Shown: positions 2,987 to 21,354 of the stretch, one piece after another
Layout: every line of letters begins with the position of its first letter
How positions within the stretch are numbered: position 1 is the first letter of the stretch
NCBI GenBank assembly: GCA_019359015.1
Contig: JAHHID010000074.1
Location: forward strand, 1 to 34,805
Source: Spirirestis rafaelensis WJT71-NPBG6
Lineage (GTDB): Bacteria > Cyanobacteriota > Cyanobacteriia > Cyanobacteriales > Nostocaceae
Direction of reading: 5' to 3'
DNA length: 34,805 bases
Translations under genes and position numbers: made by a program
Notes under the pieces: model-generated
Database searches by the model: none
Seen by the model: the letters and a program-made list of their open reading frames with translations, nothing else
Told to the model about the DNA's origin: nothing

Positions 2987-3100
2987 ACAAAAATCTATCG
3001 GTTTACAGTTTGGATAACGTCCAAGTCTATACAGTACTATCGCCCGTCCTGTGGTGGGTTTTCTTGTGCCTGCCGCCATCCATAGAGATTTTGCTATCGG

Positions 3101-3161
3101 ATAACTCGTTATATATTAAGTAGTTATATAACTTGAATAATCACAAGTTAATAACTAGTTA
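3101..3161. promoter_or_regulatory. Cluster of AGTTA/TAACT half-sites and palindromes before the recombinase gene
   Basis: Within 61 bp, TAACT or AGTTA occurs six times (3102, 3122, 3129, 3146, 3152, 3157). They form the perfect palindrome TAACTAGTTA (3152-3161) and a near-perfect larger one: AGTTATATAACTTG (3122-3135) against CAAGTTAATAACT (3144-3156). The cluster ends 34 bp before the protelomerase-like start. The same half-sites, again including TAACTAGTTA, recur at 22564-22677. Candidate roles are an autoregulatory operator, the recombinase target, or an origin site. Confidence 0.5.
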
Positions 3162-3195
3162 AATATTATATAGAAGTCAACCAACAACGAACGAG

Positions 3196-4962
3196 ATGAG
3201 CAACCCACTAAAAGACCAAGTGTTAAAGCTTTATGAAGCGACAAAGGACTTACAGTCATTTGAGGAACTAGAGCCACACTGCGAACGCTTCAATAAATGG
3301 ATTAAAGAAGAAAGTAAGATGAGCATTGCCACGCTAGGCAGTAAGTTAAGCAGTGCCGGATTCTACAAGTTGTTTAATACCATCCCCCTAGAGCAAGGTA
3401 AGAATGCTGAATCCATCCCTAAGCACGACGAACACGGCAACGTTAAAGGCTATCAGCTAAAGCATTATGTTTTAACTCAATGTGGGTTAAAGCCTCAAGA
3501 TTGGGCAACCCGTAACGAAACTGCCAGGGTAACAAATCGATTAGCAGAAGGGCAGGAAGTTGACCCAGAACCCTATATTGAAGTGACTGGAAAGCTTTTA
3601 GAAAGTAGTGACCCACACGAGTTAGCCGTTGGATTAATAGCCGCCACAGGCAGAAGACCTCACGAAATTTTAGCTCGTGCCGTCTTCACTCCTGTAGCCG
3701 ATGAACCCTACAAAGTAAGCTTTAAGGGACAAGGGAAAAAACGCGGTAAAGCTGTCGAATTCATAATTTCTACTTTGTTTCCAGCTACCCACATCATCAA
3801 ACAGCTAAACCGACTACGCAGGGAAGCAAGTACTAAAGCCTTACTAAAAGAAGTGGCTAACGAATTCCCTACAGATGTAGCCGCTCAAAATACAGCTATA
3901 GAAAACCGTCGGGGTAACTCATTGCGCCGTGTTGTGCAAAATTTCTTTGGTGGACGCCAAACAAAGACACCTATACTTAGCTTCCGTGCTGACTCCGACC
4001 AAAACGACTGTAAAGCCCTACGTGCAGCCTGTGCAGCGCTACTAACTGAAAGAGATTGCGAGGGTTCAGTTGGTTCTAAAATGCTATTTTACGGTCGGTT
4101 TCTGGGACATGTTGACATCTCTACAATTCCCACAGATAAAGACTTACACAATCTTGTCACATCGCTCGGATATGCCGATTATTACGTTAAAAAATCGGTT
4201 CCCTTCCCACCTGCGCCCGACATCGAAAAAACAATACGAGTTGGACTGACTCACGAGATTAGAGACATCATTAACGATTTAAAACCAGAATTTGAAGTTA
4301 ATACTCAAGCTGAGGTTATTGAAAAGCTTATTGATTCTCATCTCAATCGGTCTGAAGGGGTCAAAAAACTGATGGCTGAAATCGCTCAATTACGCGCTGG
4401 AAACGAACAATTACAGGAAAAACTCATCATGTCAGAATCTAACCCTACCGCAGATATTCAAGCCATCATTGCTCCACTAGTAGCCAGGATAGAAGCTTTA
4501 GAAGCGGCGCAAATGGTTGCACCCACCACCAAACCTCAAGCACCACAGCCAAAAGAGGATATCAACTGGGAAAGCGTTAGTAACACTGAATTATGGACAA
4601 ATCCAGACGGCACAAGCAACAGAGCCAAGGGAAGCGCAGAGGAAAAAATTAGACGCTCTTATGAGGCGATAACCAAATACAACGACACAATAGCCACAGG
4701 TGAAGGCGACAGGCTAGCTATTACCAACTTGGCACTAAGAGCGTTATCAGGGGTTAATGGCTTAGTGGTTGGCGAATGGATAAAAGTCCACACTGATGAA
4801 ATCATCGGTCATCACACTAAATATGAAATGCTCAATCCCAAAGACCCAAACAAAGTTGAGACTTACTACAACAAGCGACACGGGAACGAGAAAATCAATA
4901 GCATCTTGGAACTTATAAATAAAGAACTACTTGATGGAGTAGCTTTGAAAAAGTCTAACTAA
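3196..4962 (+). CDS. Protelomerase (telomere resolvase) family protein
   Basis: This 588-aa tyrosine-recombinase-like protein resembles cyanobacterial proteins of the protelomerase family. Visible candidates for the catalytic set are Arg153/154 in ATGRRPHEIL, Lys in GQGKKRGK (about 179-185), Arg276 in KALRAACA, His305 in RFLGHVD, and a Tyr cluster in LGYADYY (326, 329, 330). The spacing from LGH to the Tyr cluster is longer than in TelN or XerD, and the homologue at 30720 keeps both blocks with a different spacing. Residues about 355-450 are helical and coiled-coil-like; the last ~110 (SAEEKIRRSYEAI onward) look like a separate DNA-binding domain. Known family members cut a palindromic site and reseal it as two hairpin ends, giving linear replicons. 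Here the window ends suggest a circle, so resolution, dimer processing or a lost linear form are all possible. Confidence 0.7.
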   Translation: MSNPLKDQVLKLYEATKDLQSFEELEPHCERFNKWIKEESKMSIATLGSKLSSAGFYKLFNTIPLEQGKNAESIPKHDEHGNVKGYQLKHYVLTQCGLKPQDWATRNETARVTNRLAEGQEVDPEPYIEVTGKLLESSDPHELAVGLIAATGRRPHEILARAVFTPVADEPYKVSFKGQGKKRGKAVEFIISTLFPATHIIKQLNRLRREASTKALLKEVANEFPTDVAAQNTAIENRRGNSLRRVVQNFFGGRQTKTPILSFRADSDQNDCKALRAACAALLTERDCEGSVGSKMLFYGRFLGHVDISTIPTDKDLHNLVTSLGYADYYVKKSVPFPPAPDIEKTIRVGLTHEIRDIINDLKPEFEVNTQAEVIEKLIDSHLNRSEGVKKLMAEIAQLRAGNEQLQEKLIMSESNPTADIQAIIAPLVARIEALEAAQMVAPTTKPQAPQPKEDINWESVSNTELWTNPDGTSNRAKGSAEEKIRRSYEAITKYNDTIATGEGDRLAITNLALRALSGVNGLVVGEWIKVHTDEIIGHHTKYEMLNPKDPNKVETYYNKRHGNEKINSILELINKELLDGVALKKSN

Positions 4963-7885: not shown

Positions 7886-8944
7886 CTATTTAGCTACGCC
7901 CTCTCTTAGTTTTTTTGCTCTAATAATGTTATCGTGAGCTAAACGTTTAGAAGCCTCGTGTGTAGTTAATTCCTCTTGTTTAGCCCTAATAAAAATCTCC
8001 ATAAGAGTGTTGTAAATATTCTTAAGTTGTCTGCAAGCATTTTCTTCATCATATCCAATCATTTCATTGTAGACATTTATCAATCCTCCAGCGTTAATCA
8101 CATAGTCTGGGCAATAAAGAATTCCCTTAGATTCAAGAAGCATACTGTCTATTTGCTCATCTTCAAGCTGATTATTTGCTGCACCAGCAATAATCAAAGC
8201 TTTAATCTGAGGAATTGTTGCGCTGTTAAGAACTCCTCCTAAAGCACAAGGAGCAAAAACATCAACATCAAGACAGTAAATTTCGTTTGGCTCTACCACC
8301 GTTGCCCCATAAAGGTGTTTAATATACTCTGTATTTTCCCTGTTCAAGTCGCTTACAAAAAGTTTTACACCATGTTCATGTAAGTAATGACAGAGATTTT
8401 TGCCTACATTCCCCAGTCCCTGTACTGCGACTTTTAGCCCATCAAGCTCTTGTGTACGTAAAGAAAACTCTGTAGCGGCTTTAATTCCTAAAAAAACTCC
8501 TCTAGCTGTGACAGGCGCTGGTCCTCCACCTTTTCCTGATACGCCAACAACATAATTAGTTTCACTGCGAATCGTACGAACATCTTCAACAGAAAGATTA
8601 ACATCTTGACCTGTAATAAAACATCCATTGAGTTTTTGGACAAAACGTCCATATGCTCTGAGCAACTTATCTGTTTTATTTTCAGGATTAGCAATAATGA
8701 CTCCTTTTCCTCCTCCGATAGGAATGTTAAGACAAGCAGCTTTGTAGGTCATACCACGACTTAGGCGAAGAGCGTCTTGTAAAGCCTTTTCCTCACTGGC
8801 AAAAGGCCATAGACGTGTAGCTCCCATCGCTGGACCTAGGCTTGTGTCATGTATCGCAATAATTGCTTTCAGGTCTGACTCTTCATCATGGCAGAAGAGA
8901 ATTTGCTCATGGCCCATCTTTTTAATGGTTTCAAAAAGTTTCAT
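7886..8944 (-). CDS. Leu/Phe/Val dehydrogenase family protein (ScyB-like)
   Basis: At 352 aa it is full length for amino-acid dehydrogenases of the leucine dehydrogenase group. Lys68 (MTYKAAC) and Lys80 (GGGKGV) fall at the positions of the substrate and catalytic lysines of leucine dehydrogenase. The Rossmann loop is VQGLGNVGK (about 178-186), and CPDYVINAGGLINVYNE is typical of the group. These enzymes interconvert amino acids and 2-oxo acids with NAD. ScyB of scytonemin synthesis is the close cyanobacterial relative I recall, acting on Trp to give the keto acid used by a ThDP enzyme. Here it probably supplies 2-oxo acids (phenylpyruvate or branched-chain) to the ThDP enzyme at 14150. The start has a good ribosome site (TAGGAGAAAAGC then ATG). 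It is last in the cluster, 489 bp from the gene before it, so it may have its own promoter. Confidence 0.85.
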   Translation of the reverse strand: MKLFETIKKMGHEQILFCHDEESDLKAIIAIHDTSLGPAMGATRLWPFASEEKALQDALRLSRGMTYKAACLNIPIGGGKGVIIANPENKTDKLLRAYGRFVQKLNGCFITGQDVNLSVEDVRTIRSETNYVVGVSGKGGGPAPVTARGVFLGIKAATEFSLRTQELDGLKVAVQGLGNVGKNLCHYLHEHGVKLFVSDLNRENTEYIKHLYGATVVEPNEIYCLDVDVFAPCALGGVLNSATIPQIKALIIAGAANNQLEDEQIDSMLLESKGILYCPDYVINAGGLINVYNEMIGYDEENACRQLKNIYNTLMEIFIRAKQEELTTHEASKRLAHDNIIRAKKLREGVAK

Positions 8945-9433
8945 GCTTTTCTCCTATAAATCAGATTTAGCAAAATATGTCAACAATTTGGAAAGAACAA
9001 GAAAATGTAGATTTTTCTCCTTGCTTAGAATGAAAATATTGCTTGTTTGTTTACAGCAGGATTGAGAAGTACTGCTTTCAACTTGCCTAATCACCCGCAG
9101 ATTATCAAAACTGCCCTGGAAAAATTTCTGGTCGGTTAGCACTGATAAACAAGCAGCACTGCTGCCTTTGTATGCCTGAGCAATCTCGAATGAGCCAAAG
9201 TCAGCACGGATAAACTCCTTTACTAGCTGAGGCTTTCTTGGTCAAGAAATAACTCAGAACTCAGGAGCCAGGAGTCAGAATGACTCCTGTGCGACTAGCT
9301 GACGAGTAAACAGTCCAAGCCCCCACGCTGATCTTTGGTTTAGTGATCAACACGCAAAGTCACGGGTTTGGAGCCCCCACTAATTGCCTAAAGTTGTTAA
9401 GTAATATTCTTAGATTGAGGGGTTTGGCTACAG
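8945..9433. other. 489-bp intergenic region within the cluster
   Basis: No gene is supported. CAGGAGTCA (9271-9279) pairs with TGACTCCTG (9283-9291) over a 3-nt loop; it has no T-run and resembles dispersed cyanobacterial repeats. The rest is AT-rich close to the dehydrogenase start and may hold a promoter for it, but no convincing -35/-10 pair stands out. Confidence 0.4.
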
Positions 9434-10918
9434 TTATCGAACTTTGTCTGGTGTTTCATGTAGCGTGAACGCTTCGGATAATAGGGGAAATTGTTCAGGG
9501 TTTGCTGGGTTTGAGGTAGCCGCTTGATTAATTGACTTGATCGCTCCCCAGAAGACGCGCAGGAGAATGTTGGGCTGCATCAGCGACTGCGGTGGCACCA
9601 TCATACCCACCACGTTGAGATAAGCCTGAGTCACCTTAGGATCGTCACAGGCTTGCTTTAGAACCAGATTCATGTAGTGGTGGAGAATTCCCAAACCAAT
9701 TCGGGGTCTTGCTCCACTCAACTTCACCCCTGACCAACGCAGATCCTCGCTGCTTGACATGAACCAGGGCCCAGCGACGGTTTTGGCTAGTTGCTGCTGG
9801 AAGAGCCGCTCAAACCCCTGCCTGTTACAATGTTTGTAGTGGCGCAGACATTCATCCAAGACCAGTGCCTCCAGCGCAATGACGGTTGTCCCCTGACCAT
9901 AAACGGGGTTGAAGGCACAGACAGAATCACCAGTAACAATAAAGCCAGTTGGCCAACGGTCTAATCGCTCGAAGTGGCGTAACCGGGTTTGGGGAACGCG
10001 GAAACCCTGGATCGGGGAGAGGGGTTCGGCAAATCGGATGGCCTCATAGAGGCTAGGGTCTGACAGGTCATGTGCCCATTGCAAGAAGCCCGCTTCATTA
10101 GTCGGTGGATAGTTGCCACCAGAGCCGACCAGTGACACATGCCATTTATTATGTTCGTTGCTCATGATGAAGCCAGAGCGAGGATTGTGGGGGGGATGAC
10201 CAAAGATGACAAGGTGTTGCCAAGCTGCGGGAAAGTTAGTGGGTTTGGCGTAAATGCGGGAAGCGTAACCAGTCCCAGAGTTAACACTCTCTTCAGGAGG
10301 AACTGCGTATCCAAGCTCGACGAGCCATTCGGGAGCCTTTGAGTAGCGACCGCTAGCGTCTACAACAAGATCGGCCTGTATCATTTCAGGACTAGCGTCC
10401 TTATCTTGATGGTGCAGACGAACCCCGATCACCCTTGCCCGATCTGGTGTGGACAACAGACCCGTAACCTTGCGATTAGTGAGGAAGTATACCCCAGCTT
10501 GAGCCACGAGCCGACGACGGAGCTGCCACTCCAACAGTAACCGACTGAACCCTAGAGACTCGCCGTCTTGCTTGACCAAGGGCAGCTTGCCAGTGGGTGT
10601 GACGACTGCCGTTGGCATAACCCCATAGGCGCTAGACGCTCCGCCTGCGCGTAGCTCATCCAAGATGCCTGGAAACAGTCTGTTAATAATTTCTTGCCCT
10701 TTTTCATGCAGGGCGTGAGCATGATACGACTGGGGTACACCCTTACGGGGTTCAGGCACTTCGGGAAAGGTATCGCGGTCAATGATGCTCACCTGCTCAA
10801 AGTAATCAGTCAGGACGCGAGCTGTCAATAAACCGGCCATACTGCCACCAATAACTACGGCATGGCGACCAGTATTTAGTTGGTTGGAAAACGAATGGAC
10901 ATGATTGTGGGTGTTCAT
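9434..10918 (-). CDS. FAD-dependent monooxygenase-like oxidoreductase
   Basis: A 494-aa flavoprotein. The N-terminal dinucleotide fold is VVIGGSMAGLLTARVL (Gly24, Gly25, Gly29), followed by DRDTFPEVPEPRKGVPQ. The second FAD motif is VTGDSVCAFNPVYGQGT with EALVLDECL after it. The order fits group A flavin monooxygenase/epoxidase-like proteins. I do not find the WxWxIP motif of flavin halogenases, so chlorination is not supported. In the pathway it is a candidate for oxidising an aryl ring or the assembled core. The ribosome site CAGGAT lies 9 nt before the ATG. The gene looks richer in G and C than its neighbours, which may reflect separate acquisition. Confidence 0.75.
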   Translation of the reverse strand: MNTHNHVHSFSNQLNTGRHAVVIGGSMAGLLTARVLTDYFEQVSIIDRDTFPEVPEPRKGVPQSYHAHALHEKGQEIINRLFPGILDELRAGGASSAYGVMPTAVVTPTGKLPLVKQDGESLGFSRLLLEWQLRRRLVAQAGVYFLTNRKVTGLLSTPDRARVIGVRLHHQDKDASPEMIQADLVVDASGRYSKAPEWLVELGYAVPPEESVNSGTGYASRIYAKPTNFPAAWQHLVIFGHPPHNPRSGFIMSNEHNKWHVSLVGSGGNYPPTNEAGFLQWAHDLSDPSLYEAIRFAEPLSPIQGFRVPQTRLRHFERLDRWPTGFIVTGDSVCAFNPVYGQGTTVIALEALVLDECLRHYKHCNRQGFERLFQQQLAKTVAGPWFMSSSEDLRWSGVKLSGARPRIGLGILHHYMNLVLKQACDDPKVTQAYLNVVGMMVPPQSLMQPNILLRVFWGAIKSINQAATSNPANPEQFPLLSEAFTLHETPDKVR

Positions 10919-10944
10919 ATGTATTTCATCCTGTAGAACATTGG

Positions 10945-11009
10945 GCGTTGCTGAAGCAAAATATGAATCAAGCGATCGCCCTAATTCATATTTCTATTCT
11001 GCAACGCCG
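10945..11009. repeat. Small palindromic intergenic repeat
   Basis: GGCGTTGC plus AAATATGAAT on the left is mirrored by ATTCATATTT and GCAACGCC on the right, around a GCGATCGC core. The sequence GGGCGTTGCTGAA...TATGAATCA recurs inverted at about 25264-25300. It is a dispersed non-coding repeat between the flavoprotein and cupin genes, and could also act as an mRNA hairpin. Confidence 0.6.
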
Positions 11010-11091
11010 AACATTGAGTCGCAGCTTTATCGAAGTCTTAGTTACAAAACGAGAAACGCAAACTTCACCATTCGTCGTGTAGTGATGGAAA

Positions 11092-12009
11092 TTAAAAAAC
11101 ATTTATTTTGTGTTTGCGCTTCCGGATTGAAATTGCACAAAAAGCACCAAATGCTAACACGCCCAAAACAGAAGAAGGTTCGGGTACTGGTCTAGCATTA
11201 TTATTTAACAATGCAATTAATTCGTCAGCACGGTTGTTCTTAACGATTTCATCTGGAACTGGAACATCAAAGTATACTTTGTCTTCTAATTCACCAAAAT
11301 TAGAACTAAGGATTAGTCCGTAATCAGCGGCTACTGCTATAGCCGCTCCCAGTTTGCTAAAATCTGGCTCTGGCAAATTAGATGGGTCTGTAACTGGTAC
11401 ACCTCCTAGCTGGAACCACTTATCAAGATTTCTAGAGGGTGAGGCAACTATTCTCTCTCCTGCCGGCGTTGTTCCAGTGACTTGATGTGCGTGGATCTGG
11501 CCCCTCGGAGAAAAGAACAAATCTCCGGGTTTTGTATCTATGGCGTAGAGGTTTCCTTTTGGAGCATTGGTTCCAGGAATTACACCTTTAGGATAAATCT
11601 GATCTCCTAGGTACAGCGTAATCCCTTCATCAACGATGTAGAACCACTCGTCTGAATCAACGTGAATGTGCGGCGGTGTAAGGTTCCCCGGTAGACCTAC
11701 AGCATCGAGTAGAATGTACTGTCCGTCGGTATCGTCAGTTGTTCTTTGAAAGGTAAGGAGTTCGCCTGCTCCAAACAATACCCGCGACGGGTTTGGATTC
11801 GGTGTTACCTCTGGATATTTAAAAGCTTCTCCAGTTGAGGGCGATGTTACCTTTGAGAAACCAATAGGTGGGGAATCAGTATGTGGGATACCAGTAATAT
11901 GAGCTTCTCCTCTAGAGCTACTCATCAAAATGGAAAATACCACTCCAGTGATAGCTATAGATAAATCTTTTACAGTAGCCATAGACAAATGTACCTTGAA
12001 AGAACTCAT
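11092..12009 (-). CDS. Secreted cupin with PEP-CTERM sorting signal
   Basis: This 305-aa protein has an N-terminal hydrophobic signal (about 15-35, ending near SSSRGEA), a cupin core, and a C-terminal PEP-CTERM: VPEPSSVLGVLAFGAFC, then an Arg/Lys-rich tail. Cupin metal ligands are visible as His114, His116 and Glu121 (PPHIHVDSDEWFYIVDE), with a His in SPRGQIHAHQ (about 173-175) for the second motif. Cupins include metal-dependent dioxygenases, isomerases and cyclases. PEP-CTERM proteins are exported and processed by exosortase. An exported enzyme inside a biosynthetic cluster suggests a late step outside the cytoplasm, or product binding. Met10 (11982) has a better-placed AAGGT than Met1 and may be the true start. 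Confidence 0.75.
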   Translation of the reverse strand: MSSFKVHLSMATVKDLSIAITGVVFSILMSSSRGEAHITGIPHTDSPPIGFSKVTSPSTGEAFKYPEVTPNPNPSRVLFGAGELLTFQRTTDDTDGQYILLDAVGLPGNLTPPHIHVDSDEWFYIVDEGITLYLGDQIYPKGVIPGTNAPKGNLYAIDTKPGDLFFSPRGQIHAHQVTGTTPAGERIVASPSRNLDKWFQLGGVPVTDPSNLPEPDFSKLGAAIAVAADYGLILSSNFGELEDKVYFDVPVPDEIVKNNRADELIALLNNNARPVPEPSSVLGVLAFGAFCAISIRKRKHKINVF

Positions 12010-12079
12010 GATAAATCTTAATATTACTAGCCCTATTACAAGACTTTTATAGGGCGGACACTTCGTATCTGCTTCGCTC

Positions 12080-12192
12080 TATAGCAATCCTATTTGAGTT
12101 GTGAGAATTTTTTTGTGAATAAACCGTTCCTGAGCCAAGAGCGCCAAGAAAAGATAAACAGAGAATCTCACGAATCATTTAGGAGTGCTATA
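12080..12192. repeat. 113-bp MITE-like inverted-repeat element
   Basis: The left end TATAGCAATCCTATTTGAG and the right end, complement of TATAGCACTCCTAAATGA, form imperfect terminal repeats, with GTGAGA / TCTCAC just inside. There is no coding capacity. It sits in the 213-bp gap between the SRPBCC and cupin genes, which suggests the cluster has been loosened by more than one kind of small element. Confidence 0.6.
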
Positions 12193-12222
12193 ATTCATCA
12201 GTAATGAGTTGTTCAGCTACAG

Positions 12223-12894
12223 CTAACCATTAGCAAAGCGATACTCTAAAATAGCTTTCATGTTCCTTGCTTCAAGCTGGTGACCTGGATAAAAATATGG
12301 CCAAAAATCGCCTATCCACTCGCGATCAGTGCGATTACGACTCTCGGATATATAGCTTGGAACATCAGCAACGTTACGCTCGTAATACGGATGTTTGCAG
12401 TTAGTCCACAGCATAATAGTCCCTGGTTTACGAAGCGTTGGCATTGCGTCAAGAAAACGGTAATGATATCGCATCCAAAGCTCTTGTCCCTGATCCCAGG
12501 CACAGGGAAAGTCCACCACTTTAGAGTCGGGGTATGCTTCAGCGCGGATGTAGATATAGGTATTATCACCTAAGAAATCTAAACCTTTATAAAGACCACC
12601 GCCGATGTGTTTTAACTGGCGCACGCTATATGTCCACTCTTCCATACTATAGATGTTGGCAGCGTACTCAAAAGCCATGTCTACCGGACATTGAATGTAC
12701 TCGCAAACAGTACAATAAGTGCCGAATATCTCCTCTTGTGGATAACTTTGCTTGGTAACATCTTTAAGCTTTTCCATAACCCCTGGAATGTCCACATCTT
12801 CACAGACACACACATTTGGTATCTCTTTTGAATTAATTCCATTGGTAACAATGCTGTCCTTAGTCCACAGTTCTAAATTGTTGTGTAATTGCAT
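12223..12894 (-). CDS. SRPBCC-fold protein, possible cyclase/aromatase-type enzyme
   Basis: A protein of about 223 aa. The start is taken at MQLHNNLELW (12894) because AGGAGGAAC lies directly before it; the frame is open 5 codons further up. Residues about 60-150 (GTYCTVCEYIQCPVDMAFEYAANI onward, then MEEWTYSVRQLKHIGGGLYKG) resemble the START/SRPBCC helix-grip fold, with many Trp and Tyr that could line a hydrophobic pocket. There is no signal peptide. SRPBCC proteins include polyketide cyclases/aromatases and ligand binders. Directly behind the KASIII-like gene (69-bp gap), it may guide cyclisation of the condensed product. Family assignment is from fold-like pattern only; I do not recognise a specific homologue. 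Confidence 0.6.
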   Translation of the reverse strand: MQLHNNLELWTKDSIVTNGINSKEIPNVCVCEDVDIPGVMEKLKDVTKQSYPQEEIFGTYCTVCEYIQCPVDMAFEYAANIYSMEEWTYSVRQLKHIGGGLYKGLDFLGDNTYIYIRAEAYPDSKVVDFPCAWDQGQELWMRYHYRFLDAMPTLRKPGTIMLWTNCKHPYYERNVADVPSYISESRNRTDREWIGDFWPYFYPGHQLEARNMKAILEYRFANG

Positions 12895-12963
12895 AGTTCC
12901 TCCTGACATTATCCGAATCTAAAAAGCCAAACTATAGTGCAACAGTGAATGCCTAGGGTAGCG

Positions 12964-13959
12964 TTATCCCCAACGTATGACTATCGAACTGACAAAATCT
13001 CCTCCATTCGAGAAAGTTCCCAGTGCCAGCAAATCGCCAGATTGCACTTTGTTCTTCTCTATGGCATCAGCAAGGGTTACAGGTATCGAACCTTGAAAAA
13101 GATTTCCGTAACACTCGATAGTGTCATGAACGCGTGGCTCACCGATACCGATCCGCTTACGCCACTCCTCAATAAAAAAGACATTGGGTTGATGAGTAAT
13201 CAGTAGCGATATATCATCAGAAGATAGACCAGCCTGATAAAGACACTTACTAACCGCTTCGGGAACAAGTCTTAGAGCATTTGAGCGTAAAGTATCTAAC
13301 ATCTCTTGTGAGAAATTGATAGTAATCTGTCCAGAACCGCTTTCCCAATAGTTTAAAAAGCGACCATCCACTAAGTCGGGCTGTCCAACTAAAAGCCCGT
13401 AGTGTTCTCCATAAGAACGCTCATAACTTGCTACAAAACTAGATTGACCATCCACTAATAACGTTGCTGATGCTCCGTCGCCAAGCACCGAATACCGCTT
13501 TGAATTTTGAAGTTCTGGCAGCCGGGAAATGTAGTTAGTGACAGTGACAACAGCAATTGTTTTGTACAACCCTGACTCAATGAAGGCACGGGCAGTATTT
13601 AGCATCGACAGATAGGAACTACAACCTGTGTCAATATTCAAAACTGTTGCTCGGTTTGCCCCAACCCCATATTGAATCGCCGATCCAATACCGGGGCAGA
13701 AAAAATCGTTAAATATGCAGGAATACAAGATCAGGTCAAGTTCTTCTGGCTTAGTCTCGGTTCGTTCTACCAGCTTCTTTAGAGCATAAGTCCCCAAATC
13801 GGAGGACTGATATTCTGGTGAGGCGAAGCGTCTTTGCTTGACTCCTTTGAAAAAGGGGTTTTTCTCTAATTCATCTTCGGAGCTAGATATTAGTTCAGTA
13901 TTATCAACAATACGCTCCGGCATAAAACTAACAACGTCTAAAATTTGTGCGCTAGGCAT
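12964..13959 (-). CDS. KASIII-like 3-oxoacyl-ACP synthase III family enzyme
   Basis: This 331-aa protein starts at MPSAQILDV (13959), where AGGAGGTAAAACA precedes the ATG; the frame is open 8 codons further. The triad is visible: Cys113 in NIDTGCSSYLS, His256 in LLITHQPN, and Asn286 in CYGNLFQGSIP. KASIII enzymes condense an acyl-CoA with a second nucleophile, and some relatives form esters or C-C bonds with non-ACP partners. With the CoA ligase and ThDP enzyme upstream it is the obvious enzyme to join cinnamoyl-CoA to the ThDP product. Before a MITE inserted at 14002, the ThDP stop lay only 4 nt upstream of this start. Confidence 0.85.
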   Translation of the reverse strand: MPSAQILDVVSFMPERIVDNTELISSSEDELEKNPFFKGVKQRRFASPEYQSSDLGTYALKKLVERTETKPEELDLILYSCIFNDFFCPGIGSAIQYGVGANRATVLNIDTGCSSYLSMLNTARAFIESGLYKTIAVVTVTNYISRLPELQNSKRYSVLGDGASATLLVDGQSSFVASYERSYGEHYGLLVGQPDLVDGRFLNYWESGSGQITINFSQEMLDTLRSNALRLVPEAVSKCLYQAGLSSDDISLLITHQPNVFFIEEWRKRIGIGEPRVHDTIECYGNLFQGSIPVTLADAIEKNKVQSGDLLALGTFSNGGDFVSSIVIRWG

Positions 13960-14001
13960 TGTTTTACCTCCTTTGAATATCATTGTTAGTGCTTAATACC
14001 A

Positions 14002-14152
14002 CAGGACTTACGTAACTGGCACATTTATCTGAAAAGTCTCACATAGAATTAATATGGCTTTAAGGTTTATAAAACAATGCTTACAAGCATTTACGGGAAA
14101 TTGAAATATATGTGCCAGTTTACCTTATATTGTGACGCTTGCGTAAGTCCTA
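14002..14152 (-). mobile_element. 151-bp MITE inside the biosynthetic operon
   Basis: The ends are CAGGACTTACGTAACTGGC at 14002 and GCGTAAGTCCTA finishing at 14152. A target duplication TACCA flanks it (13997-14001 and 14153-14157). Its outer bases supply the TAG stop of the ThDP gene (14150-14152). It is in the opposite orientation to the copies at 21204 and 32771, with a few substitutions. No coding capacity; it must have been mobilised by an unseen transposase that recognises the same ends. Confidence 0.9.
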
Positions 14153-15997
14153 TACCAATGGAATTGTCGGTGCATCTTCGCTCAGAAAAGGTGTAAACGG
14201 TGGCATTTCTTCACGCAAGAGCTTCAGCTCCAAAACTCCCGGAAGATCAGCGTGCTTCATATAGTCCTCAAGTTGATGGCGCAATTCGGCAGCAGTGGCA
14301 GCACTTCCCGCCCAAAGTCGATGGGAAGGACCAAAACCCCGAGCAATCATTGCAATATCCACTGGTGCATAACGCACGCATTCCAATCGCGACTCAAAAT
14401 AGAGTTGTTGACGGATTACGCACATGCCATGCATGTTGTTATTGAACACAATAAATAGGATCGGGAGTTGCAAATCTACTGCTGTATGGATTTCTAATCC
14501 GGTCATTAAAAAGGCACCGTCACCTGCAAAAACTACTGTGTGTGTACCTTTTGGTGAGCCTAGTTGAGCACCAATTGCTCCTGCGATCGCATAACCCATC
14601 CCTCCCATACCAAGCGCGATTGTAGAACTGGAGCCGAATGGTACTTTTGTCAAGTGAAGTGCGGCGGCAGCGCAATTGCCCGCGTCGTAGAGGATATGTC
14701 CATTCTCCGGAAGGAACTTTTGCACAATGGCAATAGCCTCACTTTGTAACAGCAGTTGGCTATCAGCTATTGGCATCGGGTCGTTTGACGAGATTGGTGG
14801 GGCAGGAAACTGCTTGAATATCTTCAAATAATAGCCTTGAGGTGGCTTATGCTTGAAAGGCTTTTGCTTGAGCAATTCCAAAAGCCCTTTGAAGACCACT
14901 CCTGCATCTGCTTCCACGACCAGATCTGGAGAAATAGTACGGCTGATCTGATCAACATCTACATTCACTACCGCAATTTTCTTGTCAAGGAGTGCAGATT
15001 GGATTGGCTGTCGTGTCATGAACTTGAGATCACATCCAACAACAATCAGCAAATCTGCTTGCTCTTTCAAGTAGGCGTGAGCAGAAGGATGGCCCGCAAC
15101 ACCCAGCATTCCCAAATACAGAGGATCATCATTGGGAAAGTTACCACGTCCCCCTAGAGTCGTTATCACTGGCAAGTCAACACAACGAGCAAAGTTGACT
15201 ACTGCTTGCGGATTGCTGCACCGTCTTACCCCATCTCCCAAAATGAGTACGGGATTATTAGCCCGATAAATCTCCTCAAAAAGAGGACGAATCATCTCTG
15301 ATGTCACTTGTGGAGGACGGATAAGTGTTTTAAGTTCATCAGCCCAGATTTCTGGGCAAGGTTCGACCTCTTGCTCAAAGATGTTGCGAGGAAACAAAAG
15401 AACAGCCGGTCCGGGACGACCAGAAACAGCAGCTTTAATAGCATGAGTCAGGTGATACCAGAAGTCTTCGGATTTGGAAATCTTCGCTACATACTTGGCA
15501 ACGGCACTCCAAAGCTTTATGCTATCTACTGTACGACCGATTCCGGAGGAATCTTGAAAAGCTCCTTTTCCCTCAAGCGCTGAGGGTGGCTGTCCAACTA
15601 AAGCCAGAACAGGCACTGAATCAGCATAGGACTCGGCGATACCAGCAATGAGATTCATCATTCCCCCACCAGATGTTGAGCAGCATACACCCAAACTTCG
15701 GTGAACCCTTGCTCGGCAGTCCGCCATGAAAGCTGCTCCGTCTTCGCTCTTAGCCATTACCGATTTTAGCTTTCCTTCACCTACCCGATGAATCGCATCA
15801 TGCAGGTGTTCAATATTCGCGCCGCTGACACCAAATACGTAGCGCACATCTAGGGAAATGAGAACCTTTACTATTGCATCACTTATCTTCAACTTTTCAT
15901 GTACATACTTACCCCCGAACCGATCAAACCTGTCGAGTGCTAATGGGCGCCCAGTAGTCGGTAAAACTGGAGTATAGATGTGTTCTGTGCTTGTCAC
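14150..15997 (-). CDS. ThDP-dependent enzyme, acetolactate synthase/ScyA-like
   Basis: At 615 aa it has the three-domain ThDP decarboxylase/carboligase layout. Glu85 (AKSEDGAAF) fits the cofactor-activating glutamate, the middle domain carries VLILGDGVRR, and the ThDP-Mg motif runs from GDG (492-494) to NNN (519-521). The start is GTG at 15997 behind AAGGAG. The family decarboxylates a 2-oxo acid and can add the resulting carbanion to a second carbonyl compound; ScyA does this with aryl pyruvates in scytonemin synthesis. Here it probably makes an acyloin-type partner for the KASIII-like enzyme. The last codon and stop come from the MITE insertion: without it the frame would add LSTNNDIQRR and stop 4 nt before the next gene. 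The loss is only about 10 residues, so activity may persist. Confidence 0.85.
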   Translation of the reverse strand: MTSTEHIYTPVLPTTGRPLALDRFDRFGGKYVHEKLKISDAIVKVLISLDVRYVFGVSGANIEHLHDAIHRVGEGKLKSVMAKSEDGAAFMADCRARVHRSLGVCCSTSGGGMMNLIAGIAESYADSVPVLALVGQPPSALEGKGAFQDSSGIGRTVDSIKLWSAVAKYVAKISKSEDFWYHLTHAIKAAVSGRPGPAVLLFPRNIFEQEVEPCPEIWADELKTLIRPPQVTSEMIRPLFEEIYRANNPVLILGDGVRRCSNPQAVVNFARCVDLPVITTLGGRGNFPNDDPLYLGMLGVAGHPSAHAYLKEQADLLIVVGCDLKFMTRQPIQSALLDKKIAVVNVDVDQISRTISPDLVVEADAGVVFKGLLELLKQKPFKHKPPQGYYLKIFKQFPAPPISSNDPMPIADSQLLLQSEAIAIVQKFLPENGHILYDAGNCAAAALHLTKVPFGSSSTIALGMGGMGYAIAGAIGAQLGSPKGTHTVVFAGDGAFLMTGLEIHTAVDLQLPILFIVFNNNMHGMCVIRQQLYFESRLECVRYAPVDIAMIARGFGPSHRLWAGSAATAAELRHQLEDYMKHADLPGVLELKLLREEMPPFTPFLSEDAPTIPLV

Positions 15998-16048
15998 TGT
16001 GGAATCTCCTTGTTTTCCTATACTTAGAAAGTCATTCCATATTGACCT

Positions 16049-17584
16049 TTACTGGGGTAGCAAACTTACACTTCTATGGGACACAACGGCAAGTTTTTCC
16101 TTGCGTAATAGTCGCTTAAGAACTTTACCAATCGGATTCTTTGGAATTGAATCGACAAAATTAATAGCATGGGGAATCTTGTAGGCTGCCATCCTTTGAT
16201 AACAAAATTCAATGATTTGTTCTTCTGTCATTGCGTGACCAGCCTTTAGTACGATATTCGTCTGAACTATCTCACCTTTTACCTGATCTGGAACACCGTA
16301 AACAGCACATTCAGCAACAGCTGGATGTTGATAAATCACATTTTCTACTTCGGCAGGATACACCTTAAAGCCAGAGAGATTTATCATATCTTTGAGGCGG
16401 TCAACGATGTAGAAGTAGCCCTCTTCGTCCATCCGACCAATGTCCCCCGTATGAAACCAACCATTTTTGAGAACTTGAGCAGTTTCATCAGGGCGATTCC
16501 AATAACCAAGCATGACGTTCGGACCCTTGACAACTATCTCGCCAACTTCTCCTGGTTGTACCAACTCACCATCCAGATTGACAATCCTCATTTCCACATT
16601 TTCAATTGGACTACCAATTGAACCGAGTTTGTATTTCAAGTCGTGGTTATACGTAGAAAAGGGGGAAGTTTCAGTCAGACCATATCCTTCATGAATGACC
16701 ATGCCATGCTTTGACTGCCATCTTTGAATCACCTCCATTGGCATAGTTGCCGCAGCTGTAAAGTAATAGCGCACCGAACTTAGGTCATAGTCAGATGTGT
16801 TTGTATTCAGCAGTTTAATGAAAATTGTGGGCACCCCGAAGAACATCGTGACGTGATCGCTGGCAATGGTTCTTAGGACTTGCTCCAGATTGAAACGGCG
16901 TTGCAGCACGATAGTTGCACAGGAGTGCAGCCCAGCGTTGAGAACAGCGTTTTGACCAAAGCAATGGAATAGCGGTAGGTAAAGCAGTAATCGGTCTTCA
17001 GGTTGAGCGTGATAACAATGGTTGGCAGCGTAGACGTTGGAAATCACATTACCATGCGAAAGCGTTGCTCCCTTGGGAAAGCCTGTTGTGCCTGATGTGT
17101 AGATGATGGCAGCTGGCTCATCGCGATCCATTTCAACAGCACGCGCATCAGGTGAAACACTTGAGATCAGCTGATCTAGACTGATTCCAATTCTTGCTTG
17201 ACCCTCTGCAATCAAAATGTGTTTAAGTTCAGGTAATTCTGAATCAGGGACATTTTCTGTGAGAGATTCTGTTGTAATTAATACTTTAGCAGAGCAGTCA
17301 TCAAGAATGAATTTGACTTCATTCTTCTTTAACATAACATTTAATGAGACTGCTATGGCACCAATTTTTAAAATGCCAAGATAAGAAATCACAAATTCTG
17401 GAATATTTGGCAGCAATAATGCCACTCTTTGTCCGCGTTTAATACCCAATCCACGCAAGCCATTGGCAAGACGGTTTGCCATTTCATCAAGTTCTTTGTA
17501 CGTAAAAGATTTTCCCTCAAAAATCAGAGCCGTTTTGTTAGGAAAAAATCGACCACCGCGTTCTACATTGTGTGCAATGTTCAT
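16049..17584 (-). CDS. Aryl/acyl-CoA ligase (4-coumarate-CoA ligase-like)
   Basis: This 511-aa ANL-superfamily adenylating enzyme shows the ATP loop YTSGTTGFPKG (162-172), YGLTETSP, the hinge region TGDIGRMDEEGYFYIVDR, and the C-terminal catalytic Lys487 in NPIGKVLKR. The family activates a carboxylic acid as an acyl-AMP and transfers it to CoA. Placed 18 bp behind the ammonia-lyase, its natural substrate is most likely cinnamate, giving cinnamoyl-CoA; fatty acids are possible from sequence alone. The gap to the ThDP gene is 51 bp, so the three genes are probably co-transcribed. Confidence 0.85.
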   Translation of the reverse strand: MNIAHNVERGGRFFPNKTALIFEGKSFTYKELDEMANRLANGLRGLGIKRGQRVALLLPNIPEFVISYLGILKIGAIAVSLNVMLKKNEVKFILDDCSAKVLITTESLTENVPDSELPELKHILIAEGQARIGISLDQLISSVSPDARAVEMDRDEPAAIIYTSGTTGFPKGATLSHGNVISNVYAANHCYHAQPEDRLLLYLPLFHCFGQNAVLNAGLHSCATIVLQRRFNLEQVLRTIASDHVTMFFGVPTIFIKLLNTNTSDYDLSSVRYYFTAAATMPMEVIQRWQSKHGMVIHEGYGLTETSPFSTYNHDLKYKLGSIGSPIENVEMRIVNLDGELVQPGEVGEIVVKGPNVMLGYWNRPDETAQVLKNGWFHTGDIGRMDEEGYFYIVDRLKDMINLSGFKVYPAEVENVIYQHPAVAECAVYGVPDQVKGEIVQTNIVLKAGHAMTEEQIIEFCYQRMAAYKIPHAINFVDSIPKNPIGKVLKRLLRKEKLAVVSHRSVSLLPQ

Positions 17585-17602
17585 AACTTTTGCAGACTCA
17601 CT

Positions 17603-19297
17603 TCAAGCTTGACAAATATCATTAACAGCTTGCACAATCCGACCGCCAGCAGCGATATCAGCCGCAATCAGCGCAATGTGTTCGTCTAAGGATTGCTCGC
17701 AATCGTTCCAAATGTATGGTCGGTTTGTCGTTGGTGGCTGTCCGACTACCTCGCGTAGTGCCACATACAACTTTGCGGTTGCGGGGGACAAACATGCACG
17801 CGCATCGTAATGACGATCCATGACATATGTCCGTAGGTCAACAGCTTGCACGCCAAACATTAAGGCGATCGCCATATATTGTTGAAAGATTTCAACTGAG
17901 TGCCGCGCTAAATTGGCAGAAGCAAAACCTTGGCTATTAATATTTTGGTTAAACTGTTCCGCGTGGGTAGGGAATTTGTCGGCTATGGAATTTCCATAAA
18001 AGATCAATAACGGCATGATGGAGTTTCCAGCTATTTGTAAACCCTTCAACCCCATGTTGACAGTACGCTCTCGGTTTCCAACTAAAGAGGGTGACAATCC
18101 GTTGTTAAATTCTGGCGCTACCAGAGAGGCTATTTGTACATCCAGGTGTTTAGCCAACAACCCAATGTAATAGCGTAGCCGATCCATTGCTACACCAACA
18201 TACTGTCCCAAGAAATTGCCGCCATGATAACTCGCTTGATTTTCTACATCAATCAGTGGGTTGTCTGTGGCAGAGTTAATTTCCACCTCAATTTGTCTTT
18301 TAATCTCTTCAATGCCATCGACAATCGGACCCATGTATTGTGGCAGACAACGCAAGGAATAACGGTCTTGAATCAAATTGTCGCGATACTCGTGAGAACC
18401 ATCTAACTCATCGCGTACTAAGTGTGAGCCTGCGAGCAGGTTAAGCATTTGCGCTGCTGCCCATTTTTGCCCTGTATGAGGTTTAAGCTGATGGATAAAT
18501 GGGTGGAATGATTGATTGGTACCATTCAAACCTTGGATAGCTAAAGCGTGCGCACCCACCGAAAGTGCTAATAAAATTTTGGTGTTGTACACGCAGTTAG
18601 CAGCAATCCCTGTCATGACTGAAGTGCCATTCATCATCGCCAACCCTTCTTTGGGAAGGAGTTGCAATGGTTCTAAACCCAGCTTACTGAGGGCTGTTGG
18701 CGCGTCCATTTCTGTGCCCTTGAAGTCAACCTTATAAGAAGATTCAAGACCTGTTAGAGCTCCAGTGATGTAGGATAACGGCACCAAATCCCCACTCGCA
18801 CCAATCGAGCCAAATTCATAAACATACGGTGTGACACCAGCATTCAAAAATGTCTCCATGCGCTGGATAAGTTCGAGGCGGATGCCAGAGGCTCCATGCA
18901 AGTGAGAGTTGATCCGCAACAGCATAGCGGCGCGCACATTAGCTAGCGGTAATCTCTGGCCTGAGCCAGATTTGAGAAACCACATCATGTTGTTTTGCAG
19001 CAGAGTCGCATCGTCGCGAGAAATCACGATATTTGCCATTCCACCAAAGCCACTTGTCACGCCATAAATTGGCGCTCCCGTTTCAACGGCGTTGTTGATG
19101 TAGTCACACGATGCCTGCACACCCCGCAACACATCATGATTATCGGTTAAGCGTACTTGAGTTCCATAACGAGCCACACTGACGACTTCGTCTATTGTCA
19201 GGTTCTGATCGCCCACAGTTACAATTTTGTCTGAATTCCCAAACAAGGGTGATGAACAACTTCTTGTTGTGTTCAAGGCTGGAGATGCTGTATTCAT
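17603..19297 (-). CDS. pal: Phenylalanine ammonia-lyase
   Basis: A 564-aa MIO enzyme of the aromatic amino acid lyase family. The start is taken at MNTASPALN (19297), because the longer open frame would run into the upstream gene and cyanobacterial PALs are about 567 aa. Counted from that start, the MIO group forms from Ala-Ser-Gly at 167-169 (GSIGASGDLVP), the catalytic Tyr is at 78 (PIYGVTSGFGG), and the aryl-binding pair is Phe107-Leu108 (WFLKSGSG). Phe-Leu at this site marks preference for Phe over Tyr. Long stretches agree with the Anabaena variabilis and Nostoc punctiforme PALs. It makes trans-cinnamate and ammonia. It lies 55 bp after DAHP synthase and 18 bp before the CoA ligase, which points to a dedicated cinnamoyl-CoA supply. 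Confidence 0.95.
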   Translation of the reverse strand: MNTASPALNTTRSCSSPLFGNSDKIVTVGDQNLTIDEVVSVARYGTQVRLTDNHDVLRGVQASCDYINNAVETGAPIYGVTSGFGGMANIVISRDDATLLQNNMMWFLKSGSGQRLPLANVRAAMLLRINSHLHGASGIRLELIQRMETFLNAGVTPYVYEFGSIGASGDLVPLSYITGALTGLESSYKVDFKGTEMDAPTALSKLGLEPLQLLPKEGLAMMNGTSVMTGIAANCVYNTKILLALSVGAHALAIQGLNGTNQSFHPFIHQLKPHTGQKWAAAQMLNLLAGSHLVRDELDGSHEYRDNLIQDRYSLRCLPQYMGPIVDGIEEIKRQIEVEINSATDNPLIDVENQASYHGGNFLGQYVGVAMDRLRYYIGLLAKHLDVQIASLVAPEFNNGLSPSLVGNRERTVNMGLKGLQIAGNSIMPLLIFYGNSIADKFPTHAEQFNQNINSQGFASANLARHSVEIFQQYMAIALMFGVQAVDLRTYVMDRHYDARACLSPATAKLYVALREVVGQPPTTNRPYIWNDCEQSLDEHIALIAADIAAGGRIVQAVNDICQA

Positions 19298-19352
19298 GTT
19301 GTGGTTTATTTGTCCTTCGGGACAGCTACTTGCACGCCCGTGATTAACTTGT

Positions 19353-20453
19353 TCAAACGCCTGCAGTGGAGGAAACTCTTGGAGCAAAGTTTGGCGTTGT
19401 AGTAGCGCGATGGTTTTGAGTCCAACGACCAAAGAATGTACCCAAGGGAGCTATTTCTTGCATTAATTGCTCAAATCCTTCCAGCGTTAAAGATTGAGGA
19501 CCATCTGAAAGTGCCTTTGCCGGGTTGGGGTGAACTTCTATCATCAACGAATCTGCGCCAGCTGCTATAGCCGCCATTGCCATCGTGGGTACAAACTCTG
19601 AAAAACCAGTGGCGTGGCTCGGATCAATCATGGTGGGCAAGTGAGTCAGCGTACGCAATACTGGGAGCGCAGATATATCAAGGGTATTGCGGGTGTACTG
19701 TTTGTCAAAGGTACGGATTCCTCGCTCGCACAAAATCACATTGGGGTTGCCTGCTGCCAAAATGTACTCAGCTGACATCAGCCAATCTTCAATTGTGGCT
19801 GACAGTCCGCGCTTGAGGAGAACCGGCTTAAGAGTTGCCCCTACTTTCTTGAGGAGCGAGAAATTCTGCATATTGCGCGCACCAATTTGCACCACATCTG
19901 CGACAGATGCAACTTTATCGATGTCAGTTGTATCCATGACTTCTGTGATGATCCCCAGTCCGGTGACAACGCGAGCCTTAGCTAACAACTCTAAGGCACT
20001 CTCACCATGACCTTGGAAAGCGTAAGGTGAAGTGCGGGGTTTGTATGCCCCACCTCGGAGAAACTGCGCTCCTGCTGCTTTTACTGCTAGCGCTGTTTCT
20101 ACGATCATCTCTTCGTTTTCTACGGAACAAGGTCCAGCGACTACAACTAAAGGATGGTTTTGTCCAAAGGTTACAGCTCCATTGGGTGTTGGTACAACGA
20201 CCTCACTAGGTTCGCCATAGCGAAATTCTTTTGAAGCCCGTTTAAAAGGCTTTTTCACCCGTAGAGCCTGCTCAATAAAAGGGCTTAGGTTTTGAATTTG
20301 TCGTGGGTCAATTTCTGACGTATCACCTATTAAACCAATCACCACTTTGTGCTGACCTGCAGATTTTTCTGGAGTGATTTCCCACCGGCGGAGTTCAGAG
20401 CTGACTCGCTCAATTTCTGCTGCTGGAGTGTCGGATTTCATGATGATAATCAT
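19353..20453 (-). CDS. aroF: 3-deoxy-7-phosphoheptulonate (DAHP) synthase, type I-beta
   Basis: At 366 aa it carries an N-terminal ferredoxin-like regulatory domain (about 1-75) and a TIM-barrel catalytic domain. Visible motifs are [38 protein letters not shown], and MIDPSHATG with IEVHPNP. It condenses phosphoenolpyruvate and erythrose 4-phosphate, the entry to the shikimate pathway. As first gene of the operon it should raise Phe and Tyr supply for the cluster, as dedicated DAHP synthases do in other aromatic clusters such as scytonemin. Start at 20453 is supported by AGAGGAT 9 nt upstream; MKSDTPA (20441) is an alternative. An exact Fur-core-like 11-mer overlaps the start codon. Confidence 0.93.
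20443..20453. promoter_or_regulatory. Fur-box-core-like sequence over the start of the operon
   Basis: ATGATAATCAT equals the central 11 bases of the classical Fur consensus; by my count about 14 of 19 consensus positions agree. It covers the start codon of the DAHP synthase gene, so bound repressor could block initiation of the whole cluster. The same 11-mer occurs at 24200 and 26840 inside repeat-like hairpin modules, which weakens the case for a dedicated regulatory site here. Confidence 0.3.
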
Positions 20454-20735: not shown

Positions 20736-21002
20736 TAGGACTTATGCAAGCGTCACAATATAATGTAAACTGGCATACATATTTCAATTTGCCGTAAATG
20801 CTTGTAAGCATTGTTTTATAAACCTTAGAGCCATATTAATTCTATGTGACACTTTTCAGATAAATAGACATATCCGCAAATGAGCATCAAAGCCTTGTAC
20901 AGCAAGGGTCGAAACACAGTTTTCGGATAAGTCTAATAGACCTGTCCGCAAATAAAGCTCTCATTTCCGGATAAGTCTAATGTACTAGTTGCGTAAGTCC
21001 TG
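20736..21002 (+). mobile_element. MITE of the 151-bp family, enlarged by nested insertions
   Basis: The ends are TAGGACTTATGCAAGCGTC at 20736 and GTTGCGTAAGTCCTG ending at 21002. A target duplication TTGGA flanks it (20731-20735, 21003-21007). The body matches the 151-bp copies up to 20865 and from 20982 on. The extra 116 bp are two tandem mini-elements with AAT repeats. Confidence 0.88.
20866..20978. repeat. Two tandem mini-elements inserted in the MITE
   Basis: Unit 1 (20866-20934, 69 bp) begins AGACATATCCGCAAAT and ends TTTTCGGATAAGTCT. Unit 2 (20938-20978, 41 bp) begins AGACCTGTCCGCAAAT and ends TTTCCGGATAAGTCT. The ends are inverted repeats of AGACTTATCCG-type, and AAT flanks each unit (20863-20865, 20935-20937, 20979-20981), as expected for 3-bp target duplications. 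Neither can encode a protein. Confidence 0.75.
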
Positions 21003-21203: not shown

Positions 21204-21354
21204 TAGGACTTACGCAAGCGTCACAATATAAGGTCAACTGGCACATATATTTCAATTTGCCGTAAATGCTTGTAAGCATTGATTTATAAACCTTAGAGCC
21301 ATATTAATTCTATGTGACAGTTTTCAGATAAATGTGCCAGTTGCGTAAGTCCTG
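21204..21354 (+). mobile_element. 151-bp MITE, intact copy
   Basis: TAGGACTTACGCAAGCGTC at the left and GCCAGTTGCGTAAGTCCTG at the right, with target duplication CTCAA (21199-21203 and 21355-21359). By eye it is identical in the body to the copy at 32771. The near-identity points to recent movement. Non-coding. Confidence 0.92.

Follow-up and report, generated by a model that had tools for sequence, protein, structure and literature searches.

The nine-gene cluster

The window analysed here is one entire contig (C74, GenBank JAHHID010000074.1; 34,805 nucleotides) of the draft genome of Spirirestis rafaelensis WJT71-NPBG6, which comprises 7.07 Mb in 143 contigs. Nine open reading frames (ORFs), all on the minus strand between 7886 and 20453, encode a 3-deoxy-D-arabino-heptulosonate 7-phosphate (DAHP) synthase (DAHPS), a phenylalanine ammonia-lyase (PAL), a coenzyme A (CoA) ligase, a thiamine diphosphate (ThDP) enzyme, a ketoacyl synthase III (KASIII), an SRPBCC-like protein, a cupin, a flavoprotein and a dehydrogenase. 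An earlier note on this DNA had read them as an aromatic cluster with furanolide-like logic, perhaps making a non-chlorinated furanolide. Our analysis points to a carbazole alkaloid pathway with a phenylpropanoid starter, to which we assign a probability of about 0.7. The features, in the direction of transcription, are as follows.

19353-20453, minus strand: DAHP synthase, shikimate-pathway supply (NCBIfam PRK13396, 676 bits; nearest sequence outside the core loci, furanolide-type L131)
17603-19432, minus strand: PAL, ORF as listed (PF00221, E = 2.4e-147; W-F-L-K motif; groups with L131)
16049-17584, minus strand: aryl-CoA ligase, presumably for cinnamoyl-CoA (PF00501, E = 3.4e-103; nests with furanolide-type L131 and L132)
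14150-15997, minus strand: carbazole-type (CqsB3/NzsH) ThDP enzyme (identity 57% to Embleya and 23-26% to the furanolide-type enzymes compared; tree)
14002-14155, no strand assigned: repeat of about 152 bp resembling a miniature inverted-repeat transposable element (MITE), separating the ThDP gene from the KASIII gene (40 genomic matches; gap of 2 bp in L006)
12964-13983, minus strand: KASIII of the carbazole (CqsB1/NzsJ) kind (49% identical to Embleya; tree; triad C121-H264-N294)
12223-12909, minus strand: CqsB2-like putative carbazole synthase (SRPBCC protein), 228 residues (PDB 6ipv, E = 1.7e-74; residues D/Y/Y/H/E)
11092-12009, minus strand: cupin with a PEP-CTERM tail, probably exported (PEP-CTERM and weak cupin matches; weak quercetinase similarity)
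9434-10918, minus strand: flavoprotein related to the epoxidases Lsd18 and MonCI (phmmer E = 4.5e-67)
9086-9241, minus strand: trpC relic, an incomplete gene with 61 aligned residues (65.1 bits; best of 200 shuffled queries, 28.9 bits)
7886-8944, minus strand: ScyB-type tryptophan dehydrogenase (NF035922, 635.4 bits, cut-off 600; 67% identical to the scytonemin-cluster ScyB)

Pfam and NCBIfam scans back every gene class (DAHP synthase, aromatic ammonia-lyase, AMP-binding ligase, three-domain thiamine pyrophosphate enzyme, KASIII, cupin with PEP-CTERM, FAD oxidoreductase and Glu/Leu/Phe/Val-type dehydrogenase) except that of the 228-residue protein. From the CoA ligase/PAL junction to the CqsB2-like/KASIII junction, the intergenic gaps are 18, 51, 166 and 54 bp. 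The gene order is common to the window, Nostoc mirabile (L006) and Nostoc sp. FACHB-892 (L008), indicating that it is not due to chance; the closest named relatives by KASIII belong to Nostoc and Scytonema. Much of the earlier description stands: nine co-directional genes, an ammonia-lyase/CoA-ligase front end suited to cinnamoyl-CoA (the PAL carries the W-F-L-K motif), an acyloin-type ThDP enzyme and a KASIII as joining enzyme, the last two as classes. The lack of a flavin-halogenase motif stated there also agrees with our scan, in which the WxWxIP motif is absent from window ORFs of at least 150 residues.

The core of the cluster resembles carbazole synthesis

The gene labelled SRPBCC in the earlier note is present, but its product has no Pfam match even at E = 10. 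A profile built from six CqsB2-like sequences finds CqsB2 (PDB 6ipv) at E = 3.1e-96 and nothing else below E = 0.4. The window protein alone finds CqsB2 at E = 1.7e-74; five designed proteins also appear in that search, over a 36-residue stretch and as far weaker matches. The two proteins are 54% identical over 191 positions. CqsB2 is the ring-closing carbazole synthase of carquinostatin synthesis, with roles assigned to Glu105, Tyr144, Tyr172, His206 and Glu209 (PMC7466098, in excerpt). At these positions the window protein has Asp, Tyr, Tyr, His and Glu, a single conservative change. By sequence, the "SRPBCC" protein is a homologue of CqsB2, and the window thus holds a CqsB2-type synthase with its active-site residues, as a bacterial carbazole pathway should. 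In an actinomycete carbazole cluster the carbazole synthase is likewise annotated as SRPBCC, according to excerpts of PMC10100901.

CqsB2 homologues are rare. They occur in six of 217 Nostocaceae genomes (one a fragment). An overlapping sample of the order, with 388 genomes, has one only in the genome analysed here, and no relative was found in IMG/VR viral contigs.

The ThDP enzyme, KASIII and CqsB2-like protein form a unit that is common to six related loci, hereafter the core loci: two in Nostoc mirabile (L006 and L010) and one each in Nostoc sp. XA010 (L007), Nostoc sp. FACHB-892 (L008), Scytonema tolypothrichoides (L009) and a Blastocatellia metagenome-assembled genome (L011), where the KASIII gene lies on the opposite strand to the other core genes. 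The triad also occurs on an Embleya plasmid (L088), with 57, 49 and 54% identity to the window for ThDP enzyme, KASIII and CqsB2-like protein, respectively. The Embleya CqsB2-like protein is 85% identical to CqsB2 itself, and the triad adjoins a squalene/phytoene-synthase-family protein and a second KASIII, recalling NzsG and NzsF of the neocarazostatin cluster as described in the excerpted PMC7466098. More distant ThDP-SRPBCC-KASIII sets lie on Rhodococcus and Nocardia replicons.

A ThDP search of the 388 genomes returned three matches besides the window, with no KASIII match in the stretches around them. In a KASIII search of 386 genomes of the phylum, the window scores 707 bits, 50 genomes score 139.5-154 bits among the matches listed, and 315 further genomes have no match; two loci from this search serve as FabH rows in the KASIII tree.

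The ThDP enzyme and KASIII are separate from furanolide-type enzymes

A PAL search matched 35 of the 217 Nostocaceae genomes at 47 listed places, 44 of them near full length and one of these the window. Of the other 43, we analysed 40, in stretches of at most 20 kb. Three (L129, L130 and L139, in the genomes of L006, L008 and L007, respectively) are core-type clusters. Among the remaining 37, a ThDP gene lies within the analysed stretch in 23 and a KASIII gene in 18. The label "furanolide-type" follows from gene order and from excerpts of PMC13288894, PMC12395478 and PMC8777810, not from CybE or CybF sequences. Compared with the window, PAL in these 37 loci is 75-83% identical, the ligase, where present, 64-83%, and DAHPS, where present, mostly 72-89%, apart from a few matches that are lower or short. 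Where a ThDP enzyme or KASIII occurs, its identity is 22-27%, and no CqsB2 match at E = 1e-6 turns up in any of the 37 loci.

In a ThDP tree of 37 rows, the window enzyme falls together with those of the core loci and Embleya (SH-aLRT support 99), and 21 furanolide-type rows form one group with the genome's ScyA (100). In a KASIII tree of 33 rows, the window enzyme is placed with those of the core loci (96), next with Embleya (91) and after that with two Nocardia rows (97), and 15 furanolide-type rows form one group (100) with the genome's own furanolide-type KASIII from contig C12 (row L005, labelled FabH). The ThDP tree left out L153, L165 and the three core-type PAL loci; the KASIII tree left out the truncated L089, L153 and the second KASIII of L146 and L147, and L133, L136, L144, L148 and L165 have no KASIII match within the stretch. 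The KASIII triad is C-H-N in the window, the six core relatives and Embleya, and C-N-N in all 15 furanolide-type rows. The ThDP enzyme of furanolide type encoded elsewhere in this genome passes the NCBIfam model TPP_ScyA_rel (1057.9, cut-off 1000); for the window enzyme this model ranks outside the best 25 of 52, the 25th of which scores 177.7.

The window has PAL and CoA ligase of the CybB and CybC type, as the identities and trees indicate, but neither a CybE-type ThDP enzyme nor a CybF-type furanolide synthase. Both of its enzymes fall in the clade of the nzs-like Embleya triad. We therefore reject the furanolide assignment of the core on the identity of 22-27%, the separate tree groups and the C-H-N triad. 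Grouping of these two enzymes with another pathway is what the earlier note had named as refuting its furanolide-like reading; the CqsB2 homologue indicates a carbazole in place of a gamma-butyrolactone. The relation to furanolides survives for the DAHPS-PAL-ligase half, and the ThDP enzyme and KASIII belong elsewhere.

The DAHPS-PAL-ligase module appears borrowed

The ligase nests with furanolide-type L131 and L132 (SH-aLRT 98). PAL, in a tree that keeps all 40 loci, groups with L131 (98) and then L132 (79); an earlier tree lacked L131, L132, L134, L139 and L140 through a short ORF reading, and its repeat placed the window PAL beside L131. The window DAHPS is closest to L131, apart from the core group and L139, in a tree for which 17 of the 40 loci have no usable match; there the three core DAHPS sequences do not form one clade, and L139 and L141 fall among them. 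Both L131 and L132 have a ThDP enzyme and KASIII of the furanolide type.

The L009 locus retains just two ends of the DAHPS gene, directly before scyB. In the XA010 locus L139, DAHPS, PAL and a ligase of 70% identity are followed by a transposase-like ORF and then by a truncated ligase 94% identical to that of the window, after which the core ThDP gene comes next. These arrangements, together with the affinities to L131 and L132, point to recombination between furanolide and carbazole cluster types. Judged from its genes, the window is a chimera of a furanolide-type DAHPS-PAL-ligase module, a carbazole core and a ScyB-type tryptophan dehydrogenase, the genes for making cinnamoyl-CoA having apparently been taken over from furanolide clusters. 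By eye, the ThDP leader has no clear likeness to the furanolide-type leaders inspected, and we do not favour a recombination point within it.

The PAL ORF as listed has 609 residues, and its 45-residue leader overlaps the DAHPS gene. A start at Met46 (about 19297) is likelier, since many relatives align only from about residue 41-47, several with a stop inside the match.

Tryptophan supply

The earlier label of Leu/Phe dehydrogenase-like protein named the right family, but the gene product passes the curated ScyB cut-off. The predicted ScyB-type dehydrogenase thus points to tryptophan and offers the indole-3-pyruvate source that a carbazole pathway needs. Use of tryptophan is also supported by the trpC relic between the flavoprotein and scyB genes, a relic shared by L006 and L008. 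In L006 and L010, trpE and trpC adjoin the cluster; in L008, part of trpE does.

The genome has its scytonemin cluster on contig C50, with scyA, scyB, scyC, two ScyD/E-family genes and scyF. A scytonemin variant at the present locus is ruled out by that cluster; among the nine window proteins, ScyB alone is matched in the rows listed, without ScyA, ScyC and ScyF. A response regulator upstream in L006, L008, L009 and L139 is 54-57% identical to the regulator upstream of this genome's scytonemin cluster, and no match to it was found in the window. Because its close relatives also occur in the furanolide-type or PAL-only stretches L133, L140, L143 and L165, the regulator may have arrived together with the front end.

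Proposed pathway and alternatives

What we observe are families, trees, active-site residues and synteny; the substrates, the sequence of steps and the product are all deduced from them. The ScyB paralogue would convert tryptophan to indole-3-pyruvate, and DAHPS, PAL and the ligase would provide cinnamoyl-CoA. KASIII, which we infer accepts cinnamoyl-CoA, would couple it to the indole-derived partner by decarboxylative condensation. The CqsB2-like protein would then close ring A, joining indole C2 to the former cinnamoyl carbonyl, to give 1-styryl-2-methylcarbazole-3,4-diol or the quinone. By the logic of carquinostatin, in which indolepyruvate and pyruvate are combined, an acyl thioester is added and the ring is closed, cinnamoyl-CoA would lead to C21H17NO2, and the predicted product is an undescribed carbazole. 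According to excerpts of PMC9822442, the acceptors of NzsH are pyruvate or 2-oxobutyrate only, so that C2 would carry methyl or ethyl if the window ThDP enzyme behaves alike. The epoxidase relative and the exported cupin would tailor the product, perhaps at the styryl double bond. In origin, the pathway would be a furanolide-type DAHPS-PAL-ligase module joined to a carbazole core.

Taken alone, the carbazole core is very probable in our view, and we hold the cinnamoyl starter to be rather likely. In favour of the proposed pathway, the CqsB2 homologue keeps its residues, the unit recurs in six loci and Embleya, both trees separate the ThDP enzyme and KASIII from furanolide-type enzymes and the KASIII triad is C-H-N. 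The ScyB assignment, the trpC relic, trpE and trpC beside relatives, and the presence of PAL and ligase genes next to the core not only in the window but also in L006 and L008 point the same way. For the fullest version, a naturally recombined assembly line in which the furanolide cinnamoyl-CoA module feeds the carbazole core to make 1-styrylcarbazoles, possibly epoxidised by the Lsd18/MonCI-like enzyme, the odds are about even.

Several points weigh against this interpretation. Position 105 is Asp in the window and Glu in CqsB2; Glu is retained in L009, L010, L011 and Embleya, and Asp is found in the window, L006, L007, L008 and three Rhodococcus/Nocardia loci. The predicted structure of the CqsB2-like protein has a mean predicted local distance difference test (pLDDT) score of 39 and was not used. 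The trees were built without CybE, CybF, CqsB1 and CqsB3 themselves, with the nzs-like Embleya triad as carbazole reference, and by a quick method that gave long-branch warnings. Two Nocardia KASIIIs near the core are C-N-N, which means that outside cyanobacteria the triad is not diagnostic by itself. CqsB1 and CqsB2 are strict for beta-hydroxyacyl substrates, although related pathways are thought to use acyl- or acetyl-acyl carrier protein (ACP) (both from excerpts of PMC7466098). Finally, contig C12 of the genome (G000) carries an orphan furanolide-type ThDP-KASIII pair (L169, 7359-10248); the 19.9 kb examined around it contain neither a PAL nor a ligase match, and the genome has no second PAL at E = 1e-60. 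PAL and ligase of the window could thus feed the C12 pair. Furanolide-type KASIII also occurs in genomes G743, G755 and G766 but not in G688 and G722.

The orphan pair lends itself to a carbazole pathway with a non-cinnamoyl starter. Here KASIII would use an acyl thioester from primary metabolism, as is probably the case in L009 and L010, which have no full PAL or ligase, or benzoyl-CoA derived from cinnamate, and PAL and ligase would serve the C12 pair in trans. The benzoyl-CoA variant would yield a 1-phenyl carbazole of the hyellazole kind. Cores without PAL and ligase do exist, and CqsB1 relatives vary in starter (PMC7466098, in excerpt). However, PAL and ligase precede the ThDP gene by 51 bp in both the window and L006, L008 has retained them as well, and no chain-shortening gene is seen among the nine, which leaves this explanation unlikely, if the most serious competitor. 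A furanolide pathway after all would match the enzyme classes and the DAHPS-PAL-ligase-ThDP-KASIII order, but it would require that furanolide activity evolved independently in the ThDP enzyme and KASIII and that the CqsB2-like protein has another role. The low identities, the separate groups in both trees, the C-H-N triad and a CqsB2 homologue with conserved residues, unmatched in the 37 other PAL loci, make it highly improbable. We think it equally far-fetched that the cluster is decaying and makes no product, silenced by the insert at 14002-14155 and a missing regulator. Transposase-like ORFs lie close by, trpC is a relic and the window lacks the response regulator match, but none of the nine frames is interrupted, and their lengths are near those in relatives.

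Relation to known systems

The hybrid reading shares with the carquinostatin and neocarazostatin clusters (cqs, nzs) a ThDP enzyme, a KASIII, a CqsB2-type carbazole synthase and the indolepyruvate logic. The ScyB-type dehydrogenase stands where cqs has an aminotransferase; PAL, CoA ligase, epoxidase-like flavoprotein and cupin are extra, whereas ACP, prenyltransferase and a second KASIII are absent from the nine genes. Furanolide clusters (cyb, ncl, mac) have the same DAHPS-PAL-ligase-ThDP-KASIII order and related DAHPS, PAL and ligase, but differ in the clade of ThDP enzyme and KASIII, in the KASIII triad and in the CqsB2 homologue. The scytonemin cluster (scy) shares the ScyB-type dehydrogenase, a PEP-CTERM protein and, in relatives of the window, the upstream regulator, but its ScyA, ScyC and ScyF have no equivalent here.

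Scytonema tolypothrichoides has already been named as having homologues of the three core genes (PMC7466098, in excerpt), so the bare cyanobacterial carbazole core is not new. The ScyB, ThDP, KASIII, CqsB2-like and cupin genes of this species (L009) are 62-80% identical to those of the window, but, apart from the DAHPS remnant, full PAL, ligase and flavoprotein matches are missing.

Cyanobacterial carbazoles have been known since the hyellazoles of 1979, and halogenated carbazoles reportedly come from Kyrtuthrix maculans, the source of maculalactone (a title cited in PMC13288894). In the open-licence literature we found no report of a cyanobacterial carbazole gene cluster tied to a product, of this furanolide-carbazole hybrid or of a natural 1-styrylcarbazole. 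The cluster is a testable candidate for cyanobacterial carbazole synthesis and, if the assignment is true, gives a genetic handle on compounds such as the hyellazoles. It is also an apparent natural module swap between two pathways that share enzyme classes. The comparison suggests a quick check in cyanobacteria (CqsB2 homologue; KASIII His versus Asn) that keeps carbazole clusters from being labelled furanolide.

Tailoring genes and related loci

The flavoprotein is matched in L006 and L008, where PAL is present, and not in L009, L010 and L011, which have no full PAL; the L007 stretch stops short of its position. Among these few, closely related loci the co-occurrence with PAL is a weak association. 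The cupin matches fall slightly under the curated cut-off; export is probable, and a tailoring role is suggested. A UbiG-like methyltransferase is present in L006, L007 and L009; neither the window nor L008 has a match to it.

The second Nostoc mirabile core (L010, 9751-15544) has no PAL, and after it come two O-methyltransferase-like genes, one gene for an EasG-like NAD(P)-binding protein and one for a ScyD/E-family protein, making it a candidate for methoxylated carbazoles. In the Blastocatellia (Acidobacteria) genome, the core triad and a methyltransferase lie at 2096-10940 of L011, 50-62% identical to the window. In another Nostocaceae genome (L186, 5194-9867), a C-terminal fragment of a CqsB2 homologue lies near flavoprotein-, methyltransferase- and cupin-like ORFs and has a decayed look. 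On contig C117 of G000 (L170), a third ScyA-like ThDP gene (780-2675), 65% identical to furanolide-type L135, lies beside a KASIII gene (3006-4025) whose active-site Cys column is Phe.

Mobile elements and contig ends

The 166-bp gap between the ThDP and KASIII genes contains the mobile-element insert; other window copies of the repeat lie at 20736-20886, 21204-21354, 32300-32450 and 32771-32921. Promoter-like and terminator-like sites in the window are at or below the numbers in shuffled sequence. A search of plasmids for near matches to window positions 1-25000 yielded nothing beyond partial matches, of at most 6% coverage.

Two telomere resolvases (ResT/TelK, PF16684) are encoded at 3196-4962 (plus strand) and 30720-32207 (minus strand), which makes the plasmid-borne location proposed earlier plausible for this one contig of a draft genome. 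A 125-nt terminal inverted repeat (99%) joins positions 1-125 and 34648-34772; the contig is perhaps a linear hairpin-ended plasmid, or the repeat is merely a shared one at which the assembly broke. A large protein with a TPS secretion domain (PF05860) is encoded at 27136-29796 on the plus strand.

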